Shown here one piece after another: positions 9,251-37,147 of a stretch of 39,530 bases of DNA. Origin of the DNA: a virus; IMG/VR virus record IMGVR_UViG_3300044644_002430, positions 1 to 39,530 of that record; one strand, 5' to 3'. The position numbers and the translations under genes were made by a program. Positions within the stretch are counted from its first letter, which is position 1; every line of letters starts with the position of its first letter. The notes below the pieces were generated by a model. That model was not told where the DNA came from. It searched no databases and saw only the letters and a program-made list of their open reading frames with translations.

Positions 9251-9859
9251 CTATTTTTTAATAAATCCCCAGCAGTCTTCTTTTCCACTTGCAAACATTT
9301 GGTAATTATGTTGAGTTACAAATTCATTTACGGCATTTATTACGCCTTTCCATCCTGTATTATAATCATGTCCAGCTAAAATTCCTCCTGGTTTTACTTT
9401 TGGATACCAAGCTAAAATGTCTGCTTTTACGTTTTCGTAATCATGAGAAGCATCAATAAACACGAAATCTAAACTGTTGTTTTGATATGTATTAACTGCA
9501 TCTAAAGACGATAAACGTATGGGCTTTATAATATGTTTGACTGAATTTGTATTTGTTAAAAATAAATTATAAAGCCCATCAATTTTTGTTGTAGCGGAAT
9601 GAAAACAATTAGAATTAGCAGAAATGTGTTCTGTTGAACCTAACCAGGTATCTACGCAATCGAATTTAATATTCTTATTGGAATTGGCAATTTCTACAGC
9701 CATAAAAGACGAACTTTTACCTAGCCACGAACCAATTTCTACGAAATGAGAATTGGTTGGAAATTTATTAATAGCTGTTTTGTACATTTCTGGAAAGTTA
9801 AACCAGCCCTCAATATTATTGTAAAAATGTTCCATTAACAAGTGTTCTCGTTTAATCAT
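9251..9859 (-). CDS. Class I SAM-dependent methyltransferase
   Basis: 202 residues. HFVEIGSWLGKSSS (about 38-51) is motif I of the Rossmann-fold SAM site, FDCVDTW is motif II with the acidic ribose ligand, and LDFVFIDASHDYENVKADI is motif IV/V of the Methyltransf_24-like (cephalosporin hydroxylase/macrocin O-methyltransferase) group. PGGILAGHDY follows. Members commonly methylate sugars or small molecules, fitting the neighbouring glycosyltransferases; the substrate is not known. The start chosen is ATG 9857-9859. The ATG lies at the end of the gene 46 relic, so the 5' region of this gene was shaped by that recombination event. Confidence 0.82.
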   Translation of the reverse strand: MIKREHLLMEHFYNNIEGWFNFPEMYKTAINKFPTNSHFVEIGSWLGKSSSFMAVEIANSNKNIKFDCVDTWLGSTEHISANSNCFHSATTKIDGLYNLFLTNTNSVKHIIKPIRLSSLDAVNTYQNNSLDFVFIDASHDYENVKADILAWYPKVKPGGILAGHDYNTGWKGVINAVNEFVTQHNYQMFASGKEDCWGFIKK

Positions 9860-9863
9860 AAAC

Positions 9864-9938
9864 TTTTAATATCTTCATTGTTTTTAAATAGCTGGCACTT
9901 TGTAGGATTGAGCTTTCTGACAATTTTATATGTGTCAA
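9864..9938 (-). pseudogene. Relic of a second gene 46 (25 codons)
   Basis: In the gap between the two methyltransferase genes, the minus strand encodes DTYKIVRKLNPTKC and LFKNNEDIK in one frame. This aligns with residues 96-120 of the intact gp46 in this window (DSYKIVRKLNPTKC, LFKNGEDIT), with 20 of 25 residues identical. At the DNA level roughly three quarters of the bases match and many changes are synonymous, so it is a diverged homologue and not a recent copy. The frame is not attached to a start codon and ends at a stop at 9856-9858. It reads as scar DNA from recombination or deletion at an ancestral or foreign gene 46. Confidence 0.85.
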
Positions 9939-10516
9939 CCATTTAAATCAGAAGCAAATTTTTCTGAGGAAATTATATTCATCAACTCTTGCTTATTTTT
10001 TTCGTAGTAATAATAAGTTTTTGCAAGATCTATAGGAGCAGAGTCATATAATGTTTGAAATGGGGGTTGTTTTTGGATTACTCCACAACCACAGTCAGTA
10101 TCAACAACGCAAACACTTAATTCTGGATTATTGTACCTCAAATCAATAATTGAACGAAACACTGTTCCGTTCCAACACACTTTAATAAATTCTTCACAGT
10201 GGGGAAGACAATCATGAACTACAATTGTTCCGTTTTCATTTAATACTTTCAAAGCATTATGGATGTCCTTCGTGCTCTGTTCTTCAATGTGTAGCCCATC
10301 AACAAAAACAATGTCGAATTTTTTTGTATTTTTTGCAAAGAAATCATCTGATGTCATCTCATGCGTGAGTTGGTCGTAACACTTTTGAGGATCGACACAC
10401 TCTTTGTTATCGATAATAATCTCCTTGAAGCAATCTCCAAACTGTGTACCTATTTCTAGGTAGCTTTTATAGTTGTGTTTTTTGATTAAAGAATTAATGA
10501 TGTCGAAACGTTTCAT
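9935..10516 (-). CDS. Class I SAM-dependent methyltransferase-like protein
   Basis: 193 residues. YLEIGTQFGDCFKEI (about 19-33) is the SAM-binding motif I, KFDIVFVDGLHIEEQSTKDI is the D/H-rich motif IV, and NGTIVVHDCLPH is motif V/VI. The order VFVDGLH-(x)n-HDC is that of phage and capsule-cluster methyltransferases of the Methyltransf_24 type, related to the 9251-9859 product. The central DCGCG is unusual and could hold a metal. It overlaps the next upstream gene by 4 nt (ATGA), so it belongs to the translationally coupled cassette running from 15531 to here. Substrate unknown, probably a sugar. Confidence 0.78.
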   Translation of the reverse strand: MKRFDIINSLIKKHNYKSYLEIGTQFGDCFKEIIIDNKECVDPQKCYDQLTHEMTSDDFFAKNTKKFDIVFVDGLHIEEQSTKDIHNALKVLNENGTIVVHDCLPHCEEFIKVCWNGTVFRSIIDLRYNNPELSVCVVDTDCGCGVIQKQPPFQTLYDSAPIDLAKTYYYYEKNKQELMNIISSEKFASDLNG

Positions 10517-11367
10517 GGTGTTTTAATTTTGTTGATAAAATATTTAGCTAAAGCTTCTGTTGTGTTGTTAGTTAAAAAATGACTTTCAAACTTATCTATA
10601 AACTTATTGTAAAGGTCATCATTTTTCAAGTGCTGCGAATTAGAGTTTATTTCATTGCACAAAGATTTAGGAAAATGTGTCATTGTATTAACAGGACATT
10701 TTTCGACATCTAAAAAATAAGGAATGCATCCATTGGCTAAAATTTCGTAATGTCTCATACAATCCCATCCTGCTTTTTTAAGTGTGACTCCAAAACGCGC
10801 TTGATTGTAATCTGCATAATAATCTTTTTCGTTATTGTAAATATACGTATTTCTGTTTAACGGTGTAATAAATGAAAAAACTTTTGTTTTATTTTTGTTA
10901 AAGTTAACTTTTGGAGTCGGAAAAGCAAACGATATCGGAAACAATCGATTATGCTCAAAAGTAAGTTCTCTTTTAAAATAAAGAATACCTAGATCAAAAT
11001 TTTTATGAATGTTGGTTTCGTCCTCTCCGTCTACAGCAATTACTTGATTTTTAGGATAATATTGTAGTATCTTTTGAAGATAGTCATCACATCTCCAAAT
11101 AGAACCGTAAACAATAAAATCAAAATATCTGTTTTTTATCTTTGATGTTATATCAGTTCTATCTACTTCTAAATCAGGCAAAACTCTTGTAACAGTCATT
11201 CCTTTACCGTATAGCGTTTTTGCTATAGCTTCATCACAAGTGACATAGTTGTGTTCTTGTTTGTTATAGTCCACAACATCAGCCCCAAACATCTCTTTGA
11301 GCCCAATAAGCAAGCAATCGTTTTGGTAGTCTACATGATCTCCTTTTGTGAGGTATAATATTTTCAT
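10513..11367 (-). CDS. Glycosyltransferase-like protein of glycan cassette
   Basis: 284 residues. It starts MKILYLTKGDHVDYQND, a first Rossmann strand. The segment ARFGVTLKKAGWDCMRHYEILANGCIPYF (about 190-218) resembles the C-terminal nucleotide-sugar-binding part of exostosin or CgeB-like GT-B proteins, where RxxEIxAxGCIPxF is conserved. No N-terminal donor motif is certain. Tight 4-nt overlaps with both neighbours place it in one operon with methyltransferases and glycosyltransferases. Probable role: adds a sugar during synthesis of a phage-made glycan. Confidence in the fold is moderate and the donor and acceptor are unknown. Confidence 0.6.
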   Translation of the reverse strand: MKILYLTKGDHVDYQNDCLLIGLKEMFGADVVDYNKQEHNYVTCDEAIAKTLYGKGMTVTRVLPDLEVDRTDITSKIKNRYFDFIVYGSIWRCDDYLQKILQYYPKNQVIAVDGEDETNIHKNFDLGILYFKRELTFEHNRLFPISFAFPTPKVNFNKNKTKVFSFITPLNRNTYIYNNEKDYYADYNQARFGVTLKKAGWDCMRHYEILANGCIPYFLDVEKCPVNTMTHFPKSLCNEINSNSQHLKNDDLYNKFIDKFESHFLTNNTTEALAKYFINKIKTP

Positions 11368-12248
11368 AAAAGTTGTAAAAGTTTATTAATTCTGTTTAAA
11401 GTTGTGTGTTTTGACGAAACCGTATTAAATCCACGTTGTGCTATCTTTAATCTTTCTTGATGATTAGCAGAATAATATTGAACCTTTTCTACACAATCTT
11501 CAAAAGAATCAAAATATACTATATCCTCATTTTCTTTGAATATTAAATCAATTCTTGTGTTTGGATCTGGGCGGTCGGTCACAATCATTCTGTTGGCCAT
11601 CATGCCTTCAAATATTCGTCTCGAAATTTCTCTGTACTTGCTGTTTTGTATAACAACGTTTCCTTTCATTAAATGACGGGAGTGGTCTTCTCCCTGCAAG
11701 AAATCCACTCGAGCTTCAAACTTGTCGCCAAGAGTTTGTTTCAATTGTTTAAAAAATGGCTCTTCGATTGAACGAGTAGTCACGGCATCGAATAGAGGTT
11801 CTTGTGTAATTTTAAATTGATCTGGATCAGCAAAATATGGACACCATACAGCATTAATATTTTCAGCATTGTATCTTTCAACGCAGCGAATATCAGGTGA
11901 CAAAATTACATCAAACTCTCCGTGTTTAATTTTTGAAAAATTTAACGAAAAATTTTGAGGATCGTCTCCAGACTCAACAATCCATTTGGCTGAAGGTATA
12001 AACCTTTTTCTTAGATAAGATGACGTGAACAAACCAAAATCTAAATGGAACACTATATCCGGCACAAACTGACCGCTATTATAATCTGCTATTAGCTTTA
12101 ATAAAGAGGAGTCGTCAAATTTATCATGTACTAAAGTATTGTAAAAAACAACCTCATGTCCTAATTTCTTAAACCAATTAAAAAAACTAATAGGTATGTT
12201 CCAAACATCAGTGCTAGACGTTGGGCCTAAAATTGCTACCTTTTTCAT
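11364..12248 (-). CDS. Glycosyltransferase, CgeB-like GT-B
   Basis: 294 residues. The N terminus KKVAILGPTSSTDVWNIP begins the first Rossmann domain. KWIVESGDDPQNF and FDVILSPDIRCVERY match the mid-region of CgeB/Glyco_trans_1_2 proteins. YREISRRIFEGMMANRMIVTDR (about 205-226) carries the acidic residue and small-residue turn of the sugar-nucleotide site. VEKVQYYSANHQERLKIAQRG near the C terminus is the usual last helix. It overlaps both neighbours by 4 nt. The CgeB group takes part in spore-coat and surface glycan decoration; here it is part of the phage cassette. Donor and acceptor unknown. Confidence 0.78.
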   Translation of the reverse strand: MKKVAILGPTSSTDVWNIPISFFNWFKKLGHEVVFYNTLVHDKFDDSSLLKLIADYNSGQFVPDIVFHLDFGLFTSSYLRKRFIPSAKWIVESGDDPQNFSLNFSKIKHGEFDVILSPDIRCVERYNAENINAVWCPYFADPDQFKITQEPLFDAVTTRSIEEPFFKQLKQTLGDKFEARVDFLQGEDHSRHLMKGNVVIQNSKYREISRRIFEGMMANRMIVTDRPDPNTRIDLIFKENEDIVYFDSFEDCVEKVQYYSANHQERLKIAQRGFNTVSSKHTTLNRINKLLQLL

Positions 12249-13189
12249 TTGAAAAAGATTTGTTCAAATTTTTTCATTACTTGTTTTGGTGAAAATTGAT
12301 CTACGAGTTCTTTGTAGATACCTTTTGGGTGTGTTGGTTTTTTTAGCACCGCCAATATATCATAAAGATCTTGTTGATTTTCATACCAAATTCCTTGTTT
12401 GTTTAATAATGAAATGTGGTGTTTATCAAGTCCGTTTTTCCAGCTTATTACGGGCTTGTCATTGAAAAGAAATTCGCAAATTGCTAGTCCAAAACTTTCT
12501 CCGTGTTGTCTAGCGTGAATCATGTAGTCACACGTATTAATAAAATCTGCTTTGTTTTGTAGGTTATATGTTCCTTCAACATAAACAACATTTTGGTTTG
12601 AAGAAATAAAAGGTCTTGTATTCATGAAAAGAAAAGTAATATCATTTCTTTGTTTTAAAACTTCTTCGATTGCTTTGTAAACAAACGGTAAATCAAAGTC
12701 ATTAAAACCCCCATAACGTCCAATAACAATATTGTTTTCGGGAATATTAAGTTTTTCTTTATAATTCTTTTTTGGTTCCGGCAAACAAACAATGTGTGGA
12801 ACATATTGCTCTTCCATTCCCATCTGTTCTGCTAACCATTTCGAAACATAAGCATAAGAGTCCCCATGGACGTCTTTATTTTGAAAGACTGCGTGGATCG
12901 CATTCTTTGCACCAGAAATTACTTTTCCGTCGTTATCTCCAGCTTTAATGTAGTACACATATTCAATGCCTTTGTCTTTGACAAACTGTTCGCACTCCTC
13001 AAACTTTTCGTATAAAAACACCTCAAACTTGTTTTGAAATTTTTTGAGTGTTGTTAGTTCAGCGTTTGCATTTGATATAATATACGATTTATTACCCAAT
13101 ATTTCTTCGTTATAAAAAGCATAATCATATAAAGCAACTTCTGTGCCTCTAATGCCTAATTGATTAGAATGGAATCCTACAGTTTTCAT
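12245..13189 (-). CDS. Glycosyltransferase, GT4/GT-B family
   Basis: 314 residues. GFHSNQLGIRGTEVALYDYA (about 5-24) is the glycine-rich acceptor-side motif of GT4 enzymes. IVIGRYGGFNDFDLPFVYKA (about 154-173) starts the second Rossmann domain. HARQHGESFGLAICEFLFNDKPVI (about 225-248) contains the EX7E-like pattern: GESFGLAICEF. So it is probably a retaining sugar transferase that uses a nucleotide sugar. Genes on both sides overlap it by 4 nt. No Shine-Dalgarno sequence is seen at the ATG; coupling to the upstream stop probably provides initiation. Confidence 0.83.
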   Translation of the reverse strand: MKTVGFHSNQLGIRGTEVALYDYAFYNEEILGNKSYIISNANAELTTLKKFQNKFEVFLYEKFEECEQFVKDKGIEYVYYIKAGDNDGKVISGAKNAIHAVFQNKDVHGDSYAYVSKWLAEQMGMEEQYVPHIVCLPEPKKNYKEKLNIPENNIVIGRYGGFNDFDLPFVYKAIEEVLKQRNDITFLFMNTRPFISSNQNVVYVEGTYNLQNKADFINTCDYMIHARQHGESFGLAICEFLFNDKPVISWKNGLDKHHISLLNKQGIWYENQQDLYDILAVLKKPTHPKGIYKELVDQFSPKQVMKKFEQIFFK

Positions 13190-13935
13190 TTGTATTGTTT
13201 AAAGTGCTTGTATCCTCCTGATTTATATGGCTCGTTGTTCCACTTTGAGGCAAGTAAGTCGCCTTGCTCATTCATGTTTTTAGGAGTATATTTTAACCGA
13301 TCTTCTGCGTATTTGTTGGAATGACCCGATTGGTGTTTAACTCGAGCTCCTGTATGAACTCCGTGTAAAAGTCCGCAACGTTCTAATGACATTGCGTAGT
13401 CATTATCTTGATAAAAGAAGTAAAATTTTTCGTCTAAATAGCCAATTCTTTCAAATACTGAACGGCGACACGCAAATATGCATCCAAACATATGTAATGA
13501 AACTTCGTAACCGTGATACAATTTACTTTCTGAAGGAAGATACATAGAAGTGTGTCTGTGCCACTCTCTGTCAATTGGTGAAATTGAATGTATTTCTTGA
13601 TTGGTTTGAAATTCTTTTAATAGAGTTTGCAAACAATTTGGCTGAATTAACAAATCGTTATTCGGTCCGATGATATACTGAGCTGTGCACTCAGATAAAG
13701 CTATATTGTAAAACTTATTGTAATTAAATTGTTCGTTAGGCTTAATAAGTTTTACCTTTTCTTGTTTGTAATCCCGATCGAAGTTAGGATTTGTCTCAAC
13801 AATGTAAATTTTATTCACTAAATCATCAGCCGTATCAATATACGAATCTACGCAAGACTTAGTTGTTTGAAACGTTTGTTCGTCCACAGCAAGGGACAAA
13901 ATTATTACATCAAATTTATTATTGACAATTGACAT
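13186..13935 (-). CDS. Glycosyltransferase, GT2-like (GT-A fold)
   Basis: 249 residues. The N-terminal strand FDVIILSLAVDE and the later strand KIYIVETNPN resemble a GT-A Rossmann start. YIIGPNNDLLIQPNCLQTLL (about 86-105) occupies the place of the DxD metal site of GT2 enzymes (here NND). MFGCIFACRRSVFERIGYLDEKFYFFYQDNDYAMSLERCG contains the GYLDExFFxxxxDxD acceptor motif of rhamnosyl- and galactosyltransferase-like GT2 proteins. It overlaps the next upstream gene by 17 nt and the downstream gene by 4 nt. Inverting sugar transfer is inferred from family; donor unknown. Confidence 0.82.
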   Translation of the reverse strand: MSIVNNKFDVIILSLAVDEQTFQTTKSCVDSYIDTADDLVNKIYIVETNPNFDRDYKQEKVKLIKPNEQFNYNKFYNIALSECTAQYIIGPNNDLLIQPNCLQTLLKEFQTNQEIHSISPIDREWHRHTSMYLPSESKLYHGYEVSLHMFGCIFACRRSVFERIGYLDEKFYFFYQDNDYAMSLERCGLLHGVHTGARVKHQSGHSNKYAEDRLKYTPKNMNEQGDLLASKWNNEPYKSGGYKHFKQYK

Positions 13936-14692
13936 ATAGGTAATTTTCTATTTGTTTAATGACATCATACTGATGAAGAACGTAAGGAATATCATCGTTA
14001 ATTGATATTTGTTCTGCTATGTTAACTCTCGAGTTGGCTAAATGAGCTAAATTTGCTACTTCATTATTTTTTAAAATGTTATATCTTGGTGAATCAAAGT
14101 AGACGACTTTGTTGAGGGATGCTTGATCAATGTTTTGGTAGTTCCCGATCCGTGAAATAATTTGAGTCATATCATTGCACATTTCTTTTAATAATTCAAC
14201 GCAACTTTCTCTTCTTCCAAAGATTGTTCCTCCATTTAAAATTTGATAACGCTTGAGTAAATTAAAAATATCTTGGTTGTAGCATAACTTAACCCAAGTT
14301 GTATTTGTTTCACAATTACCAATATATTCATTTTCTGCAGTTACATAAGGCTTAGAATTGACAACCAACTCAAAAGGATTTTTCTGAAAGTACAAATCAG
14401 TAAAGTCGCACAAATACACATTTGATGCTGTACAAAAGTGTTTGGTATACAAATAAAAATAAATCACCTTTAAAGTATAAGGTGAAATAGAATTTTGGAT
14501 CTTGTATTTTTCGCTCAGTTCTTTAGAATCGATTAAATTAACGTGGTTGTCTTTTAAAAATTCAGTCAATTCTTTTGTAAGACCAGAAGCAATTACTGTA
14601 ACCGTTTTAGAAAACTTTTTTGCGCTATTTACAAAAACTTTGATGCCAGGACTTAAGTTATAACCTTGTCCATATGTAACAATCTCGTTCAT
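13919..14692 (-). CDS. Glycosyltransferase-like protein (GT-A, DUF-type)
   Basis: 257 residues. The segment ASNVYLCDFTDLYFQKNPFE (about 92-111) has the D-x-x-D form and hydrophobic flank of GT-A proteins of the nucleotide-diphospho-sugar transferase group (GT8- or GT77-like). GGTIFGRRESCVELLKEMC and NIDQASLNKVVY later in the chain are usual for these, the first being the acceptor loop and the second a conserved DQ motif. It overlaps its upstream and downstream neighbours (4 and 17 nt), so it belongs to the cassette. Precise family and substrate cannot be read from the sequence. Confidence 0.68.
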   Translation of the reverse strand: MNEIVTYGQGYNLSPGIKVFVNSAKKFSKTVTVIASGLTKELTEFLKDNHVNLIDSKELSEKYKIQNSISPYTLKVIYFYLYTKHFCTASNVYLCDFTDLYFQKNPFELVVNSKPYVTAENEYIGNCETNTTWVKLCYNQDIFNLLKRYQILNGGTIFGRRESCVELLKEMCNDMTQIISRIGNYQNIDQASLNKVVYFDSPRYNILKNNEVANLAHLANSRVNIAEQISINDDIPYVLHQYDVIKQIENYLYVNCQ

Positions 14693-15531
14693 TTGGTTTT
14701 TAATTTTTTTAAAATGTTTAATACTTGTTGCTCAGTATGAGTGGGAGGTTGATTTGGATAATGTCCGTGTTTGTTTTTGTATATTTCTCTGCCTTGCATC
14801 ACTCGCTGCATCCACTTTTCTTTGTCTTTAGCTATTGATGAATTTTCAATAGCTCCAGGAGCTTCTTCAATTAATTCATGACTATTTGCTAAATCAGCAA
14901 ACCACCAAAACGGTGGATGAAATCCTGCTTTAATAATTTGATATGTGTGATCTACGTGCTCCCAGCACTTGTCGTATTCTTCCGGAAAGTAACCAACTTG
15001 CTTAATAACTTCGTCAGTAAAAAACGAGAACATTGCAACAGTGTGTTCATACAAAGCTATTTTGCAGACTTTGTAATCTACAATAAGTTTTGGGTTTGGC
15101 TTTGTTTTTTCGTCAAGCAAGTGTCTGTTGTGTAGGTCAGGGTTGGGGATTGTTTGAACTCGATTAAAAGGAGATCCAGGCCCGTAATTAAAATGTTGAA
15201 TGCCGCTTACCTTGCAAGCTTCAACGTATTGAGCAAAAACAGTTTTATCTTTTATTACAATATCATCTTCCAAAACAAAAACATATTTGCATTGTTTATT
15301 TAACAAACGATCTAGTGCTTTGTTTTTTGATTTTGCTACACCTAAATTTGTTTTGTTGTTAATCCATTCACCTTTAGAAAGGCTAACTTCATTAACAGAA
15401 TCTCCATCATTAACTACCACTAATTCGTCGATGTCAAAATGACATTTTACTAAAGAATCTAGTAAACTCCGAAGGTAATCAATCCTATTGCAGGTAATGA
15501 TCCCAACCCCAATTTTTTCTTTATTATTCAT
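14689..15531 (-). CDS. Glycosyltransferase family 2 (GT-A fold)
   Basis: 280 residues. IGVGIITCNRIDYLRSLLDS (about 6-25) and LVVVNDGDS form the UDP-sugar site. NLGVAKSKNKALDRLL is the conserved nucleotide-contact helix, and YVFVLEDDIVI (about 83-93) carries the DxD-type metal motif (EDD). KQVGYFPEEYDKCWEHVDHTYQI has the acceptor-site acidic residues. All hallmarks of an inverting GT2 enzyme are present. Substrate unknown. It is the first gene of the cassette after gp47, overlaps the gp47 3' end by 8 nt, and so is likely co-transcribed with gp47. Confidence 0.87.
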   Translation of the reverse strand: MNNKEKIGVGIITCNRIDYLRSLLDSLVKCHFDIDELVVVNDGDSVNEVSLSKGEWINNKTNLGVAKSKNKALDRLLNKQCKYVFVLEDDIVIKDKTVFAQYVEACKVSGIQHFNYGPGSPFNRVQTIPNPDLHNRHLLDEKTKPNPKLIVDYKVCKIALYEHTVAMFSFFTDEVIKQVGYFPEEYDKCWEHVDHTYQIIKAGFHPPFWWFADLANSHELIEEAPGAIENSSIAKDKEKWMQRVMQGREIYKNKHGHYPNQPPTHTEQQVLNILKKLKTK

Positions 15532-21104: not shown

Positions 21105-21863
21105 TCAAACCTTTAAAGCTTTATCCCAGACCAGGAGATGCAAACGAGGACTAAAATTAACATGCATTGCTTTAGCGTATTCGACTACAGCTTGGGCTTT
21201 TTCGATGTGTTCTTGTCTAGATCCACAACAAGGCATGAACCAAACTCGTTGAAGAGGTACGTTAACCCCTTCATAATCATCTACATATTTTCTCCAAATT
21301 TCCTCAATATCTCTGTCAGAATTAATAACAAACTTGAAACCGGAGTTATGATCTACATGCCATCTCAACACATCTGGCTTGTAAGTCTTTTCTTCAGGGT
21401 CTCCGTTAGTCGTTAGTTTAGGAGATGTAGTAAAAGTAGCACAAAAATCTGTTACCCAACGTTCATCAGGAATAAGAGTAGCATTTGTTTCAAAATCAAT
21501 TCTTGGATTAAACTGATAACGCTCATTAAAAGCTTCCATGAATTTGAGAAGCTGTTTCTGTTGAATAAAAGGTTCTCCTCCAGTCAATTTAAATATAGCC
21601 CGATTACGAAGATGTTCAATATAATTCTTTTCTTCCATTAATTCAAAAATTTCCTCGAATGTCATTTTGTTCTTAACGGACCAAGAAATAAACGAATCAC
21701 ATCCATTAGGACTATCAGCAGAAGCGAACCCTTTGCAAGTCAAATTGCACATCGACATACGCATGAATACAGAAGGCTGTCCTACATATTCTCCTTCTCC
21801 TTCTACGGTATAAAAAACTTTATCGTCAGACAAAAACAGAGTTTCAGTATTAATATCAATCAT
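21105..21863 (-). CDS. queE: 7-carboxy-7-deazaguanine synthase QueE (radical SAM)
   Basis: 252 residues. The start YTVEGEGEYVGQPSVFMRMS is the QueE signature (xxQGEGxxxGxPxxFxR). The iron-sulfur cysteines are C39, C43 and C55, a CX3CX11C spacing wider than the usual radical SAM CX3CX2C because of a GFASADSPNG insert. LTGGEP (93-98) is the SAM-binding GGE motif. It converts 6-carboxytetrahydropterin to 7-carboxy-7-deazaguanine. That is the step after QueD, which lies next to it. The pathway leads to preQ0 and then to queuosine in tRNA or to 7-deazaguanine in phage DNA. No QueC, FolE or Dpd gene is in the window. Confidence 0.9.
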   Translation of the reverse strand: MIDINTETLFLSDDKVFYTVEGEGEYVGQPSVFMRMSMCNLTCKGFASADSPNGCDSFISWSVKNKMTFEEIFELMEEKNYIEHLRNRAIFKLTGGEPFIQQKQLLKFMEAFNERYQFNPRIDFETNATLIPDERWVTDFCATFTTSPKLTTNGDPEEKTYKPDVLRWHVDHNSGFKFVINSDRDIEEIWRKYVDDYEGVNVPLQRVWFMPCCGSRQEHIEKAQAVVEYAKAMHVNFSPRLHLLVWDKALKV

Positions 21864-21868
21864 AAATT

Positions 21869-22303
21869 TTATTCAGTATAAATTGCGCTGTTCAGTTCAT
21901 GCTCCCAAACTTCAACTTTAATGACCTTGCATCGGTTATCAGTTTGTTTTTTAATATGTTCATTTGCTTTTCTGAAGCACCATTCTGCAGTCTTTTCAAT
22001 GCCAACATCTCCCATAATTCGCAGATCACAACCTCCAGCTTCATGTAGCTGCCCAAAGAGCTTTAACAAAGGATCATCCACAGCAATGCACAAAGTGTGA
22101 TCGAATTGTTGTTGAAGTTCTTGCTTGAGGTCTTTGAGTCCTCCAAAATTAACAACCCAATTGCGTTCGTCTAATTCTCCTTCAAACCAAAATTTAGCTT
22201 TTAATTGATAACCGTGAACTTTGCAGCAGTGGGTATCTGTTGCTCTCCATTGTCTGAAAGCACAAGATCCTAACTCGATTATCTTTGTGGAAATATAACT
22301 CAT
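21869..22303 (-). CDS. queD: QueD-like 6-carboxytetrahydropterin synthase, divergent
   Basis: 144 residues. The catalytic cysteine region reads CCKVHGY: C26-x3-H30 fits the C-x3-H-G-H of QueD, but the third zinc histidine is Tyr32. The N-terminal AAH motif is CAFRQW, so the first zinc ligand is also not in place. FDH (67-69) and VWE near 134 match the catalytic D-H and E. The FRQW/HGY form recurs in phage PTPS-like proteins by recollection, so it may be a phage subfamily with altered metal binding. It makes the QueE substrate from dihydroneopterin triphosphate if active. It overlaps the upstream 91-aa gene by 4 nt and lies 5 nt from queE. Confidence 0.82.
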   Translation of the reverse strand: MSYISTKIIELGSCAFRQWRATDTHCCKVHGYQLKAKFWFEGELDERNWVVNFGGLKDLKQELQQQFDHTLCIAVDDPLLKLFGQLHEAGGCDLRIMGDVGIEKTAEWCFRKANEHIKKQTDNRCKVIKVEVWEHELNSAIYTE

Positions 22304-33728: not shown

Positions 33729-33805
33729 TGGCGTACCTGGCTGGGCTCGAACCAGCGACCAATAGCTTAGAAGGCTATTGCTCTATCCAACTGAGCTACA
33801 GGTAC
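33729..33805 (-). tRNA. tRNA-Arg (UCU)
   Basis: 77 nt with encoded CCA. Acceptor GTACCTG/CAGGTAC, anticodon loop CTTCTAA (anticodon TCT), T-arm GCTGG/CCAGC. The 3' half nearly matches the Ile tRNA at 35486 and the chimeric Gln tRNA. Confidence 0.95.
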
Positions 33806-33857
33806 GATTTATTGTGAAATAAAGATACCATCAAATAGTGGACAAGTCCACTCAAAA

Positions 33858-33932
33858 TGGCTGGCAAGGTAGGACTCGAACCTACGACCAATCGGTTAAC
33901 AGCCGACCGCTCTACCACTGAGCTACTCGCCA
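33858..33932 (-). tRNA. tRNA-Asn (GUU)
   Basis: 75 nt with encoded CCA. Acceptor TGGCGAG/CTTGCCA (one G-U), anticodon stem GTCGG/CCGAT with loop CTGTTAA (anticodon GTT). Confidence 0.95.
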
Positions 33933-33938
33933 ATAAAA

Positions 33939-34013
33939 TGGAGCCAGCACTCGGATTCGAACCGAGGACCGACGGTTTACAAAACCGTTGCTCTACCACT
34001 GAGCTATGCCGGC
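33939..34013 (-). tRNA. tRNA-Thr (UGU)
   Basis: 75 nt with encoded CCA. Acceptor GCCGGCA/TGCTGGC, anticodon stem ACGGT/ACCGT with loop TTTGTAA (anticodon TGT). Confidence 0.95.
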
Positions 34014-34016
34014 GAT

Positions 34017-34088
34017 TAGCGGGTGAGGGAATCGAACCCTCCTGAAGAGGCTTATGAGACCCCTCAATTCCCAGAATTGTAACCCGCA
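34017..34088 (-). tRNA. tRNA-Met (CAU), CCA not encoded
   Basis: 72 nt. D-stem CAAT/ATTG, anticodon stem GGGGT/GCCTC with loop CTCATAA (anticodon CAT), T-stem GAGGG/CCCTC. Positions 1 and 72 are T and T and do not pair, which recalls the unpaired end of initiator tRNA, but the three G-C pairs of an initiator anticodon stem are not complete. It could be elongator, initiator or Ile2 (CAU read after modification). A 3-nt gap separates it from tRNA-Thr. Confidence 0.85.
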
Positions 34089-34100
34089 TTATGAAATTAA

Positions 34101-34247
34101 TTATGCCCATCCAATAAAATTACTATCCTTTTTCTCTTTGGACTGTTCAACAGGTTTTTTCTTTTCTTGCTTTTCTTTTTTTTGCTGCTCTTTTTTAAAA
34201 TGATCTTTAAATGGCAGGTGTACAGAAGTTGTTTTTTCTACTTTCAT
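34101..34247 (-). CDS. 48-aa lysine/glutamine-rich protein
   Basis: A short frame from ATG 34245-34247: MKVEKTTSVHLPFKDHFKK, then a K/E/Q repeat (KEQQKKEKQEKKKP), then a conserved-looking end DSNFIGWA. The strong charge bias and fixed start suggest a real gene and argue against the longer reading (34211) of the divergent GT90. Function unknown. Confidence 0.5.
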   Translation of the reverse strand: MKVEKTTSVHLPFKDHFKKEQQKKEKQEKKKPVEQSKEKKDSNFIGWA

Positions 34248-34257
34248 GTAGTTTGTG

Positions 34258-34274
34258 TTGTTATATTATAACAA
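34258..34274. promoter_or_regulatory. 17-nt palindrome between divergent genes
   Basis: TTGTTATA-T-TATAACAA is a perfect inverted repeat with one central base. It lies in the 47-nt gap between the 34247 start (minus) and the 34295 start (plus). It contains TATAAT on the minus strand and so could be an operator over a bidirectional promoter. Confidence 0.35.
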
Positions 34275-34294
34275 ACTTAGTAAATAATCAACAC

Positions 34295-35326
34295 ATGGAT
34301 TATGATCAAAAACAATGGGTGGCTCAAATTTTGTTTGAACATAATTATGATCTATCATTTAACGTCAAGTACCCTGCTTCTAGAGTAGATGTTAAATCAA
34401 TTAATGGCCATCTTTGGTCAGTTAGAGGAGCTAGAAATGGAATGAGCTCTACTACAAGACAAAATTCTACACTTGCTTTATTCAAGCAGGCATATGAATT
34501 ATCAACAAAACCTAATTTTGAATGTGTTTTTTCTACGGAAGATGTCCCGAGAACAACATTTTTAAAACCTTACTTTTGCTACTCTACACATTCTAAGACT
34601 CCGGATGACTATTCAAAAGTAATTCCTGACTACACGTTTGATTCAATGAACCTTAATCGACGTTACGAACTCAATGAAATACAATACGATTCAAGTTATG
34701 TTAAATTAATTGATAATATAATTAAAGCGGGCAATGAACCTCCTTTAACAGATAAAGCTGGGTGGTGTGGTAATTTAGGAGTATGGGATAGAGTTCGAAT
34801 GGTAGAGTTACACAAAACTTTTCCTTTATGCAATTTAGCTGAAATTATACAAATGTCTTGGGAAGTTAAAGATCCTAATTTCCCAAGTATGCCTAAAAAT
34901 TTTATGACCATTCCTGATCAAGTTCTCCGTTGGAGATATTTGATCGACATTCGAGGAAATGGATGGTCCGATAGAGTTAAATGTTTTTATTTTTCTAACA
35001 GATTAATGTTTAGAATTATTAGACCGCATAACGAATTTTATGACAAAAATTTAATTCCTTGGGTACATTATGTACCCGTTCAACACGTCGATCGGCTAGC
35101 AGAAACTATTACTCAAGTAAAGGGTGATCTCGTAATGGAGAACGAAATTAAAGCAAATGCTTTAAAATTTGCCAATGAAAATTTATTGCAAAACCATGCA
35201 ATAGAATATTTTCGAAAAATAATTGATGAAACAAATTGGGCTGCAGAAGCAGCTAGCTATAAGCAATTGCACGTGACTGTTCCAGACAATTTAAACTTAC
35301 TCGGATTTGATGTTGAATTTTTATAG
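34295..35326 (+). CDS. Glycosyltransferase family 90 (CAP10-like)
   Basis: 343 residues from ATG 34295; an upstream ATG at 34211 would add a hydrophobic stretch but overlaps the 34101-34247 gene. The region RWRYLIDIRGNGWSDRVKCF then SNRLMFRIIRPHNEFYD and WVHYVPV (about 225-272) is the signature of GT90/CAP10 proteins, which add xylose, glucose or similar sugars to O-linked or LPS acceptors. It stands alone on the plus strand inside the tRNA cluster. The stop at 35324-35326 is 1 nt before the CCA end of the next tRNA. Role in host surface or virion modification is inferred. Confidence 0.78.
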   Translation: MDYDQKQWVAQILFEHNYDLSFNVKYPASRVDVKSINGHLWSVRGARNGMSSTTRQNSTLALFKQAYELSTKPNFECVFSTEDVPRTTFLKPYFCYSTHSKTPDDYSKVIPDYTFDSMNLNRRYELNEIQYDSSYVKLIDNIIKAGNEPPLTDKAGWCGNLGVWDRVRMVELHKTFPLCNLAEIIQMSWEVKDPNFPSMPKNFMTIPDQVLRWRYLIDIRGNGWSDRVKCFYFSNRLMFRIIRPHNEFYDKNLIPWVHYVPVQHVDRLAETITQVKGDLVMENEIKANALKFANENLLQNHAIEYFRKIIDETNWAAEAASYKQLHVTVPDNLNLLGFDVEFL

Positions 35327-35327
35327 A

Positions 35328-35403
35328 TGGTAGACTTGGCTGGGCTCGAACCTATAACCATCAGATCCAAATTCTGATGCACTACCAATTGGGCTACTCC
35401 GTA
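35328..35403 (-). tRNA. tRNA-Gln (UUG)-like, chimeric, probably inactive
   Basis: 76 nt. The 5' part has a D-arm and a good anticodon arm (TCAGA-ATTTGGA-TCTGA, anticodon TTG). The 3' part (T-loop, T-stem 3' strand, acceptor 3' strand, CCA) is 24 of 25 bases identical to that of the Ile tRNA at 35486. So the acceptor strands TACGGAG and CAAGTCT cannot pair and the T-stem ATAGG/CCAGC is broken. The 3' strand CAAGTCT is perfectly complementary to the 5' end of the Ile tRNA instead. Confidence 0.8.
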
Positions 35404-35409
35404 ATAAAC

Positions 35410-35484
35410 TGGCACTCCCAAGGGGACTTGAACCCCTGCTACCTCCGTGAAAGGGAGATGTGCTAACCACTACACTATGGGAGC
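35410..35484 (-). tRNA. tRNA-Glu (UUC)
   Basis: 75 nt with encoded CCA. Acceptor GCTCCCA/TGGGAGT, anticodon stem TCTCC/GGAGG with loop CTTTCAC (anticodon TTC), T-stem AGGGG/CCCCT. Confidence 0.95.
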
Positions 35485-35485
35485 G

Positions 35486-35562
35486 TGGTAGACCTGGCTG
35501 GGCTCGAACCAGCGACCTATTCATTATCAATGAATTGCTCTGACCAACTGAGCTACAAGTCT
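35486..35562 (-). tRNA. tRNA-Ile (GAU)
   Basis: 77 nt with encoded CCA. Acceptor AGACTTG/CAGGTCT (one G-U), anticodon stem ATTCA/TGAAT with loop TTGATAA (anticodon GAT). Its 5' end overlaps the stop codon of the SemiSWEET gene by 2 nt. Confidence 0.95.
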
Positions 35563-35824
35563 ATTTTTTATATTTAAAGCAAATATACACTAAGATCGAT
35601 GACATGACAAGCCCAAAAGTATAATTTAAAAAAATCCATAGAGCAAAAGTTGTTAAAAACATGTAAATCAATCCAAAAGTATATCCGCCCATGCACATAA
35701 AAATTAAAGATAAAGAAACGTCTTTGGCTGATTTGGTTTTTGTGATTTTGATAATCTGAGGAACATAACAAAACATAAAGCACAGCGCCATTATAATTCC
35801 AGATATTTCGCGTATTGTATTCAT
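35561..35824 (-). CDS. SemiSWEET/PQ-loop membrane transporter-like protein
   Basis: 87 residues. The first helix ends YVPQIIKITKTKSAKDVSL: PQ at 22-23 with the KTKSAKDVS follow-on is the PQ-loop repeat signature. Three hydrophobic helices are visible (about 5-24, 38-58, 61-83), the triple-helix bundle of bacterial SemiSWEETs, which dimerise to transport sugars. Length matches the family (about 85-100). Its stop codon overlaps tRNA-Ile and its ATG lies 5 nt from tRNA-Val, so it sits tightly within the tRNA array and is co-transcribed with it. Substrate unknown. Confidence 0.82.
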   Translation of the reverse strand: MNTIREISGIIMALCFMFCYVPQIIKITKTKSAKDVSLSLIFMCMGGYTFGLIYMFLTTFALWIFLNYTFGLVMSSILVYICFKYKK

Positions 35825-35828
35825 AAAA

Positions 35829-35903
35829 TGGTGGACTCGATAGGAGTTGAACCTACGACCAATAGTGTGTAAAACTACCGCTCTACCGCTGAGCTACGAG
35901 TCC
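35829..35903 (-). tRNA. tRNA-Val (UAC)
   Basis: 75 nt with encoded CCA. Acceptor GGACTCG/CGAGTCC, anticodon stem GTAGT/ACTAT with loop TTTACAC (anticodon TAC). Confidence 0.95.
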
Positions 35904-35908
35904 AAAAC

Positions 35909-35991
35909 TGGGCAGAACTGGATTCGAACCAGTGAAGGCGTAAGCCAGCGGATTTACAGTCCGCCCCGTTTGGCCACTTCGGTATCTACCC
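35909..35991 (-). tRNA. tRNA-Tyr (GUA), CCA not encoded
   Basis: 83 nt with a long variable arm. Acceptor GGGTAGA/TCTGCCC, anticodon stem GCGGA/TCCGC with loop CTGTAAA (anticodon GTA). The bases after the discriminator are GTT, not CCA. Confidence 0.94.
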
Positions 35992-35999
35992 ATTTAAAT

Positions 36000-36085
36000 T
36001 GGTACTCGAGGTGGGACTCGAACCCACACGGTATTACTACCAACGGATTTTAAGTCCGTTGCGGCTGCCATTACGCCACTCGAGC
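36000..36085 (-). tRNA. tRNA-Leu (UAA)
   Basis: 86 nt with a long variable arm and encoded CCA. Acceptor GCTCGAG/CTCGAGT, anticodon stem ACGGA/TCCGT with loop CTTAAAA (anticodon TAA). Confidence 0.95.
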
Positions 36086-36088
36086 ATA

Positions 36089-36162
36089 TCGGAGTGAAAG
36101 GATTCGAACCTTCGACCTCCTGGTCCCAAACCAGGCGCTCTACCAAGCTAAGCTACACTCCG
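36089..36162 (-). tRNA. tRNA-Pro (UGG), CCA not encoded
   Basis: 74 nt. Acceptor CGGAGTG/CACTCCG, anticodon stem CCTGG/CCAGG with loop TTTGGGA (anticodon TGG). Its 5' end lies inside the last codons of the 36148-36444 gene. Confidence 0.94.
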
Positions 36163-36444
36163 GTTAATAAGAAAAATTTGTTCTTGATTTAAGTTAGTCA
36201 ATGCTCGTCCTAGTGCAATTGCGTTGCCTACTTTCCTGTCATAATTATCTTCAATTGAACATACAGCAACTCCTTCAACGTCAGTTTGTTTGTCAGGAGT
36301 TGTAATTTGAATAATTGTAGTTCCACCTTTGGCACTATTTTCAAGATAGTCTCCATCAATTTTTTTAACAATCTTTTGGTGTCGCTTGTGAATTACTCGG
36401 ACTTTGAATCCTGACCGGCGAAGTTGTTTAATAGTGAATTGCAT
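36148..36444 (-). CDS. Hypothetical 98-aa basic protein
   Basis: 98 residues from ATG 36442-36444; the longer frame to 36561 reads through tRNA-Ser and is rejected. It begins [24 protein letters not shown], a basic strand-helix that could touch nucleic acid. [43 protein letters not shown] follows; the last part resembles a phage helper motif where a regular D-R-K-x-G-x-x-I-A-L-G-R-A stretch closes the fold. Function unknown. The 3' end overlaps tRNA-Pro by 15 nt. Confidence 0.65.
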
Positions 36445-36487
36445 GTAAGAGATAATACAGTATTTGATATTTTTGACAACAGTAAAA

Positions 36488-36575
36488 TGGCGGACAGAGT
36501 AGGATTCGAACCCACGGAACCTTTCGGTCCTCCGGTTTTCAAGACCGGCGCAATCGACCACTCTGCCATCTGTCC
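36488..36575 (-). tRNA. tRNA-Ser (UGA)
   Basis: 88 nt with long variable arm and encoded CCA. Acceptor GGACAGA/TCTGTCC, anticodon stem CCGGT/ACCGG with loop CTTGAAA (anticodon TGA). Confidence 0.95.
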
Positions 36576-36582
36576 GTAAAAG

Positions 36583-36669
36583 CGGAACGAGAAGGATTTG
36601 AACCTTCGGAGGTTTTTAGGCCTCGGAGCTTTAGCAAAGCTCTGCCTTAAGCCACTCAGCCATCGTTCC
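36583..36669 (-). tRNA. tRNA-Ser (GCU), CCA not encoded
   Basis: 87 nt with long variable arm. Acceptor GGAACGA/TCGTTCC, anticodon stem GAGCT/AGCTC with loop TTGCTAA (anticodon GCT). The discriminator G is followed by CTT. It lies 5 nt from the 3' end of the tmRNA. Confidence 0.94.
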
Positions 36670-36674
36670 AAAAT

Positions 36675-37112
36675 TGGTGGAGGTGAGGGGAGTTGAACCC
36701 CTGTCCAGATAACTTACGTTAAAAGGTCTACATGCTTAAATGGATTCGGCATTTTTTGACTAAAGGCTGCCTTGGCTCATTGGCCATCTTTTAAAGTCTG
36801 CCTACACGAGCGAAAGGTCTCGTATTACCTCTGTGCAAGTTTTTCTATGATCTCTAACAGTTCATCAAAACCTCTGCGTTTTCCAAATACTTTTAGAGGA
36901 TCTAGTATAAGGCTTTTAGGCTGCGAGTTCGTACTCGTCTTCACAACCAACGAGGAACTCGTCAGCGTGATTGATGATGTACTCAGCTTCAGCTAAAAGA
37001 TCAGAAGTATTGTCTTCTGCATTTAGTTTTTTAATCGATTTTTAAAGAGGCCATCGATTAACCTCTGCATGCACTTTTAATTTCAACTATTTGTCGAAAC
37101 CAGTACACCCCC
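36675..37112 (-). ncRNA. ssrA: tmRNA (transfer-messenger RNA) with 34-residue tag
   Basis: 438 nt. The 5' end GGGGGTG and 3' end CACCTCC-A-CCA form a full acceptor stem. The T-arm AGGGG-TTCAACT-CCCCT and the 5' GTTTCGAC are tmRNA hallmarks. Pseudoknot PK1 is clear: AGAGG/CCTCT crossed by TTAATCGAT/ATCGATTAA. Helix H2 closes between TGCATG and CATGTA. After the resume codon GCA (37018-37020) the tag reads AEDNTSDLLAEAEYI then INHADEFLVGCEDEYELAA and a TAA stop at 36916-36918. In bacteria tmRNA frees stalled ribosomes and tags the unfinished protein for proteolysis. The ELAA end is the protease signal. The tag is longer than the 11 residues of E. coli. Confidence 0.95.
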
Positions 37113-37139
37113 AAATGTCAAAGATCAGTGTTGTTAGTT

Positions 37140-37147
37140 TATTTATA
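37140..37147 (-). promoter_or_regulatory. T4-type late promoter TATAAATA before tmRNA
   Basis: Minus-strand perfect TATAAATA ending 27 nt before the tmRNA 5' end. With T4 geometry the transcript would start near 37134, leaving a leader of about 22 nt for RNase P to remove. Confidence 0.55.

Follow-up and report, generated by a model that had tools for sequence, protein, structure and literature searches.

A phage-encoded one-piece tmRNA with a conserved 34-residue tag

Introduction

In trans-translation, SmpB and EF-Tu bring alanylated tmRNA to ribosomes that have stalled, whereupon the tag that it encodes is translated, and an ALAA end of such a tag is a signal for ClpX and ClpA (PMC3985003). 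Ten residues is the most frequent tag length (PMC11915505). Mycoplasma tags end in AFA and are read by Lon, in hosts that lack ClpXP and ClpAP (PMC3985003); the extended Mycoplasma tag and its connection to Lon are attributed to Ge and Karzai in PMC11986505. Phages can encode tmRNAs as well: a survey found them in 402 of 18,146 phage genomes, with 53 of 133 distinct ones being two-piece (PMC9004378), and huge phages carry a tmRNA together with SmpB (PMC7162821). Such phage tmRNAs are usually seen as spare copies of a housekeeping RNA of the host. Here, we analysed a tmRNA gene in an IMG/VR virus fragment from a T4-like phage; in the following, 'the window' refers to this entire 39.5 kb stretch of DNA.

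Results

The window carries a T4-like gene set (UvsX, a DnaB-type helicase, PolB, an SbcD-like nuclease, a late sigma factor and helicase genes), and the isolates nearest to its PolB are Pelagibacter and Prochlorococcus myophages with an identity of only about 33%. The tmRNA gene heads a minus-strand cluster of 12 tRNA genes (Table 1). Also located within this cluster are a gene for a SemiSWEET-like PQ-loop protein of 87 residues (PF04193, E 3e-13; window 35561-35824, minus strand) and, on the opposite strand, a glycosyl transferase family 90 gene (window 34211-35326, plus strand). Elsewhere in the window, a 6-pyruvoyl tetrahydropterin synthase family protein (QueD-like) is encoded beside a 4Fe-4S protein of QueE-like appearance (21105-22303, minus strand), a pair that may belong to the 7-deazaguanine pathway, while a run of glycosyltransferase- and methyltransferase-like genes, judged by eye from the translations, is found among the replication genes (9251-15531, minus strand).

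An earlier note on this DNA had described a complete phage-encoded tmRNA, which was borne out. ARAGORN called the gene at exactly the coordinates given in Table 1, the Rfam model RF00023 matched over its full length (1-374) with 142.3 bits against a gathering value of 47 (E 6e-56), and the fold was better than that of 100 out of 100 dinucleotide shuffles (z -4.3). The acceptor stem contains the G3.U70 pair, the identity pair for alanylation, which is present in 27 of the 29 family members having both ends. In the family alignment, 8 of the 11 PK1 pairs show compensatory changes and 97.9% of the cells are paired. These changes, along with the near-universal G3.U70, indicate that the RNA, too, is kept functional as a tmRNA. 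The permuted two-piece order is absent, the window and all relatives checked being one-piece. The RNA is thus confirmed as a real and complete one-piece tmRNA encoded by a phage.

Table 1. Coordinates of the tmRNA gene, its parts and its neighbours in the window.
Feature	Position	Strand	Evidence
Complete one-piece tmRNA gene (ssrA), 438 nt	36675..37112	-	ARAGORN; RF00023 142.3 bits; fold z -4.3
5' acceptor strand GGGGGUG, G3 pairs with U70	37106..37112	-	7-bp acceptor stem
Pseudoknot PK1	37033..37066	-	Alignment with covariation
Resume codon GCA after CUAAAU, with U at -5 and A at -4	37018..37020	-	RF00023 alignment
34-codon tag reading frame AEDNTSDLLAEAEYIINHADEFLVGCEDEYELAA	36919..37020	-	dN/dS 0.09, codons 1-22
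Added tag module predicted as helix, codons 6-23, SDLLAEAEYIINHADEFL	36952..37005	-	dN/dS, predicted helix, entropy
Helix 5 region, GAGUUCCUCG / CGAGUACGAACUC, formed by the last tag codons	36925..36960	-	RF00023 alignment
Tag C-terminus ELAA, resembling a degron	36919..36930	-	LAA in 44/50 distinct tags
Tag stop codon TAA	36916..36918	-	Read from the sequence
T-arm, 3' acceptor strand and encoded CCA	36675..36706	-	ARAGORN, RF00023
tRNA gene cluster, 12 tRNAs	33729..36669	-	ARAGORN; downstream of the tmRNA
Upstream motif GATCTTTGACATTT adjoining the mature 5' end	37113..37126	-	Conserved in relatives

Immediately upstream of the tmRNA 5' end, the window has a conserved motif, GATCTTTGA(A/C)ATTT. 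Of 41 distinct upstream regions of relatives, 37 share it, with the TCTTTGA-like part at a distance of 11-20 nt. It may be a promoter or processing element. As candidates for known promoters, a T4 late promoter TATAAATA at 37140-37147 was rejected as the window has no more such matches than chance would give, and the Bacteroidota promoter TANNTTTG showed no enrichment.

The tag, 34 residues from GCA to TAA, has a net charge of -11, a single Cys and the C-terminus ELAA, in agreement with the earlier note, which had called it acidic. The Cys that was also pointed out there is present in the window, but is not a feature of the family, since only 17 of 50 distinct tags have one. In this family, which we found through several searches, tags of similar length recur: an exact 21-base match to the tag end yielded five further viral contigs, a degenerate resume-site probe about 50 viral contigs with tags of 32-35 residues, and an alignment-based search of IMG/VR 101 viral contigs encoding tag relatives, 80 of which were fetched, most records being fragments. 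All 27 relatives tested encode an RF00023 tmRNA, full length except for one that ends at a contig edge. The distinct tags read are 32-35 residues long and differ in length by whole codons, i.e. by in-frame insertions and deletions. Their consensus is AEDNT-SDLLAEAEYIFNNADEFL-variable linker-Y(A/L)LAA, with LAA at the C-terminus of 44 out of 50 and AFA at that of none. A more distant version, ADEDYGDLLAQAEYIFNNADEFLVDVEEDALLAA, occurs in L261 and L262. The 125 kb contig L090 (PolB 67% identical) encodes a lysine-rich tag of 35 residues, AKTNVKAILAKVKKAVNTITEFCLCDEMAPLAIAA, with the same hydrophobic spacing as in the acidic family (tmRNA at L090 1501-1966). By our judgement of the tag alone it is probably a distant relative, and acidity itself may not matter.

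Some tmRNAs encountered on the way have other tags. A more distant T4-like relative (L089 1501-1867) has a 26-residue tag, GNRIVNAVRGIANRVFAPQGELALAA, that begins with Gly, and the degenerate resume-site probe also retrieved permuted phage tmRNAs of the alphaproteobacterial type (L126, L128, L134, L137, L142, L152 and L161). The 14-residue tags of these tmRNAs, AEDNTAYEDYALAA or AEDNTAYEGYALAA, match both ends of the long tag and are devoid of the module.

We found the long tag to be conserved as a peptide. Among 54 distinct sequences, codons 1-22 gave a pS of 0.58, a pN of 0.10 and a dN/dS of 0.09 (0.19 for codons 1-9, 0.044 for codons 10-22 and 0.036-0.044 for the module core), compared to 1.65 and 2.65 in the other two frames, all dN/dS values being pairwise means without tree correction and with dS near saturation, so that it is the contrast among frames and not the exact figure that counts as evidence. 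Stops interrupt these other frames in most sequences, and the resume codon GCA is nearly invariant in the 54 tags. Little or no variation is seen at tag residues 9-12, 14, 17 and 19, and the mean entropy is 0.50 bits for the first 23 residues vs 0.91 for the last five. In the AlphaFold2 prediction, residues 5-17 form a helix with a pLDDT of about 91, whereas a second helix and the C-terminus are less certain. On the basis of dN/dS and PK1 covariation, we rejected the possibility that the gene is a neutral passenger.

Could the tag be shorter, or its extra stretch be conserved for the sake of the RNA? For the window and several relatives, ARAGORN places the tag start at codon 11, ten codons past GCA, which would leave 24 residues and half supports the short tag that the earlier note had named as contrary to its proposal. 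The same program starts at GCA in the homologue L083 (33 residues), and a start at codon 11 would be separated from the end of PK1 by about 42 nt. We consider the tag to have 34 residues because GCA coincides with the consensus resume codon of RF00023, about 12 nt past PK1 with U and A at -5 and -4, and because protein-level conservation extends over codons 1-9; the 24-residue version, at odds with this conservation and with the near-invariant GCA, is extremely improbable. Only slightly more credible is selection of the extra stretch as RNA, for the folding or spacing of the tmRNA, as opposed to the peptide. It is true that the 3' part of the tag forms helix 5, but the low dN/dS of codons 10-22 lies mostly ahead of this helix, variation falls on third codon positions and leaves the amino acids unchanged, and length changes by codons only.

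Where else does the tag occur? Two scans with one genome per species, covering 84,980 prokaryote species, gave no confirmed relative; both detect close relatives only, so that 'virus-only' is to be taken here as the lack of a close relative in the data searched. An alignment query without any prokaryote match was the one that recovered the 101 viral contigs. The earlier note's view that the phage has a tag of its own held to this extent, i.e. close relatives are absent from the bacterial genomes searched. The tag had no match in 50,697 records of phage isolates either, and a search with the tmRNA in phages and plasmids returned nothing or short matches, nearly all at the tRNA-like end. Related phages have PolB proteins that are 86% down to 44% identical to that of the window. 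One of the phages (G051, L191) instead encodes a Pol III-alpha replicase without similarity to PolB, so that the long tag is found with T4-like PolB and also with Pol III-alpha, replisome types that are unrelated to each other. In G004, the tag is identical to that of the window and the tmRNA is 88% identical, in a phage with a PolB of 44% identity. This pattern and the spread over replisome types fit an exchange of the gene among phages or its capture from a shared host.

With regard to the host, none of the 27 open reading frames of at least 150 aa in the window has a Shine-Dalgarno motif, vs 3% in shuffles and 17 of 33 in T4. The absence weakly hints at a Bacteroidota host; it is no proof, since huge phages that are poor in such motifs and have a phage rpS1 also exist (PMC7162821).

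Discussion

Based on the anatomy of the RNA, we suggest the following sequence of events. The alanyl-tRNA synthetase of the host would charge the phage tmRNA and host SmpB would bring it to ribosomes that have come to a halt on broken mRNA, where translation would resume at GCA and add Ala plus 34 residues to the unfinished protein. The LAA end of the tag would then be read by host proteases of the ClpXP or ClpAP type, while residues 6-23, the selected and predicted helix, would most likely bind a protein partner, such as a protease adaptor, a protease or a phage factor. Binding of the partner could set the speed at which tagged fragments are lost or their destination. Host SmpB would be needed as no SmpB was found in 44 phage records, many of which are fragments. 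Ordinary degradation is the default expectation because most distinct tags end in LAA, a ClpX/ClpA signal, and a binding partner is the simplest explanation for a stretch that is selected as a peptide and predicted to be helical. Our main reading, to which we assign a probability of roughly 0.6, is that of a tmRNA for normal trans-translation, the tag of which combines a C-terminal degron of the ClpXP type with a selected, probably protein-binding helix.

As for the identity of the partner, no convincing relative of the tag module was found in PDB or Pfam, no SspB in the phage records and no other open reading frame resembling the tag in the fetched loci. A phage ClpP as dedicated tag protease was considered and rejected: a ClpP-like gene is present in only 2 of 21 records (G051 and G053; the records are mostly fragments), and the copy in L191 matches head maturation proteases.

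Other roles and origins of the tag have to be weighed against this reading. The earlier note had proposed that a long acidic tag could change the protease, and a redirection of rescued proteins to another protease or another fate, comparable to what the extended tag of Mycoplasma does with Lon, would indeed account for the unusual length and the strong selection on the added module, the more so as extended tags with a change of protease are known (PMC3985003; Ge and Karzai, as cited in PMC11986505). We nevertheless regard it as unlikely, as the tags retain LAA where those of Mycoplasma end in AFA, and no phage protease is tied to the tag, the few ClpP-like genes including one of the head maturation type; the proposal was not upheld. 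Similarly speculative, and in our opinion just as doubtful, is the idea that the helix acts as a phage effector: tagging during the destruction of host mRNA would plant many copies of a protein-binding helix, which might recruit or block a host factor, e.g. a protease adaptor or a defence protein, and rescue would then double as host takeover. A somewhat better, though still low, chance is given to the explanation that the host lineage itself encodes the long tag and that phages captured the host gene, in which case the tag would be an ordinary host tag. The same tag in two unrelated phage types, as observed, is what capture from a shared host should produce; moreover, the genome scans find close relatives only. 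On the other hand, neither search revealed a relative in 84,980 species genomes compared to 101 viral contigs, and tmRNAs with 88% identity in two phages with PolB proteins of 44% fit phage-to-phage exchange.

In our main reading, a tmRNA with degron and helix, presence of the long tag in 101 viral contigs and in no bacterial genome searched suggests that the added stretch performs a task of its own while the phage infects its host. A tag that is nearly unchanged in viruses, lacking in the searched bacteria and common to unrelated phages points towards the tag itself being useful to the phage, beyond a spare copy of a host RNA. Being a small peptide that can be synthesised, it lends itself to direct tests of what becomes of rescued proteins once cells are infected.

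Compared to known systems, marine phage Melnitz is similar in being a T4-like phage that encodes a tmRNA, which is two-piece in Melnitz (PMC9004378). The crAss-like phages and cyanophage S-CAM1 encode tmRNAs as well; ARAGORN marks these as permuted, with tags of 13-21 residues. Huge phages share the carriage of a tmRNA by a large phage, but have SmpB, which was not found in the records of the window's relatives, many of them fragments; a conserved long tag is not described for their tmRNAs in the part of PMC7162821 available to us, our comparison covering the open-access literature. The tmRNA of Mycoplasma likewise has an extended tag, but with an AFA end instead of the ELAA found in the window. 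With the bacterial one-piece tmRNA (ssrA, RF00023), the phage RNA has in common the tRNA-like domain with G3.U70, PK1, GCA, a tag ending in LAA, TAA and CCA, and it differs by its tag of 34 residues, roughly threefold the usual length, and the extra conserved module predicted to be helical. Within the open-access literature compared, the RNA in the window belongs to the tmRNA family and is new by its tag.
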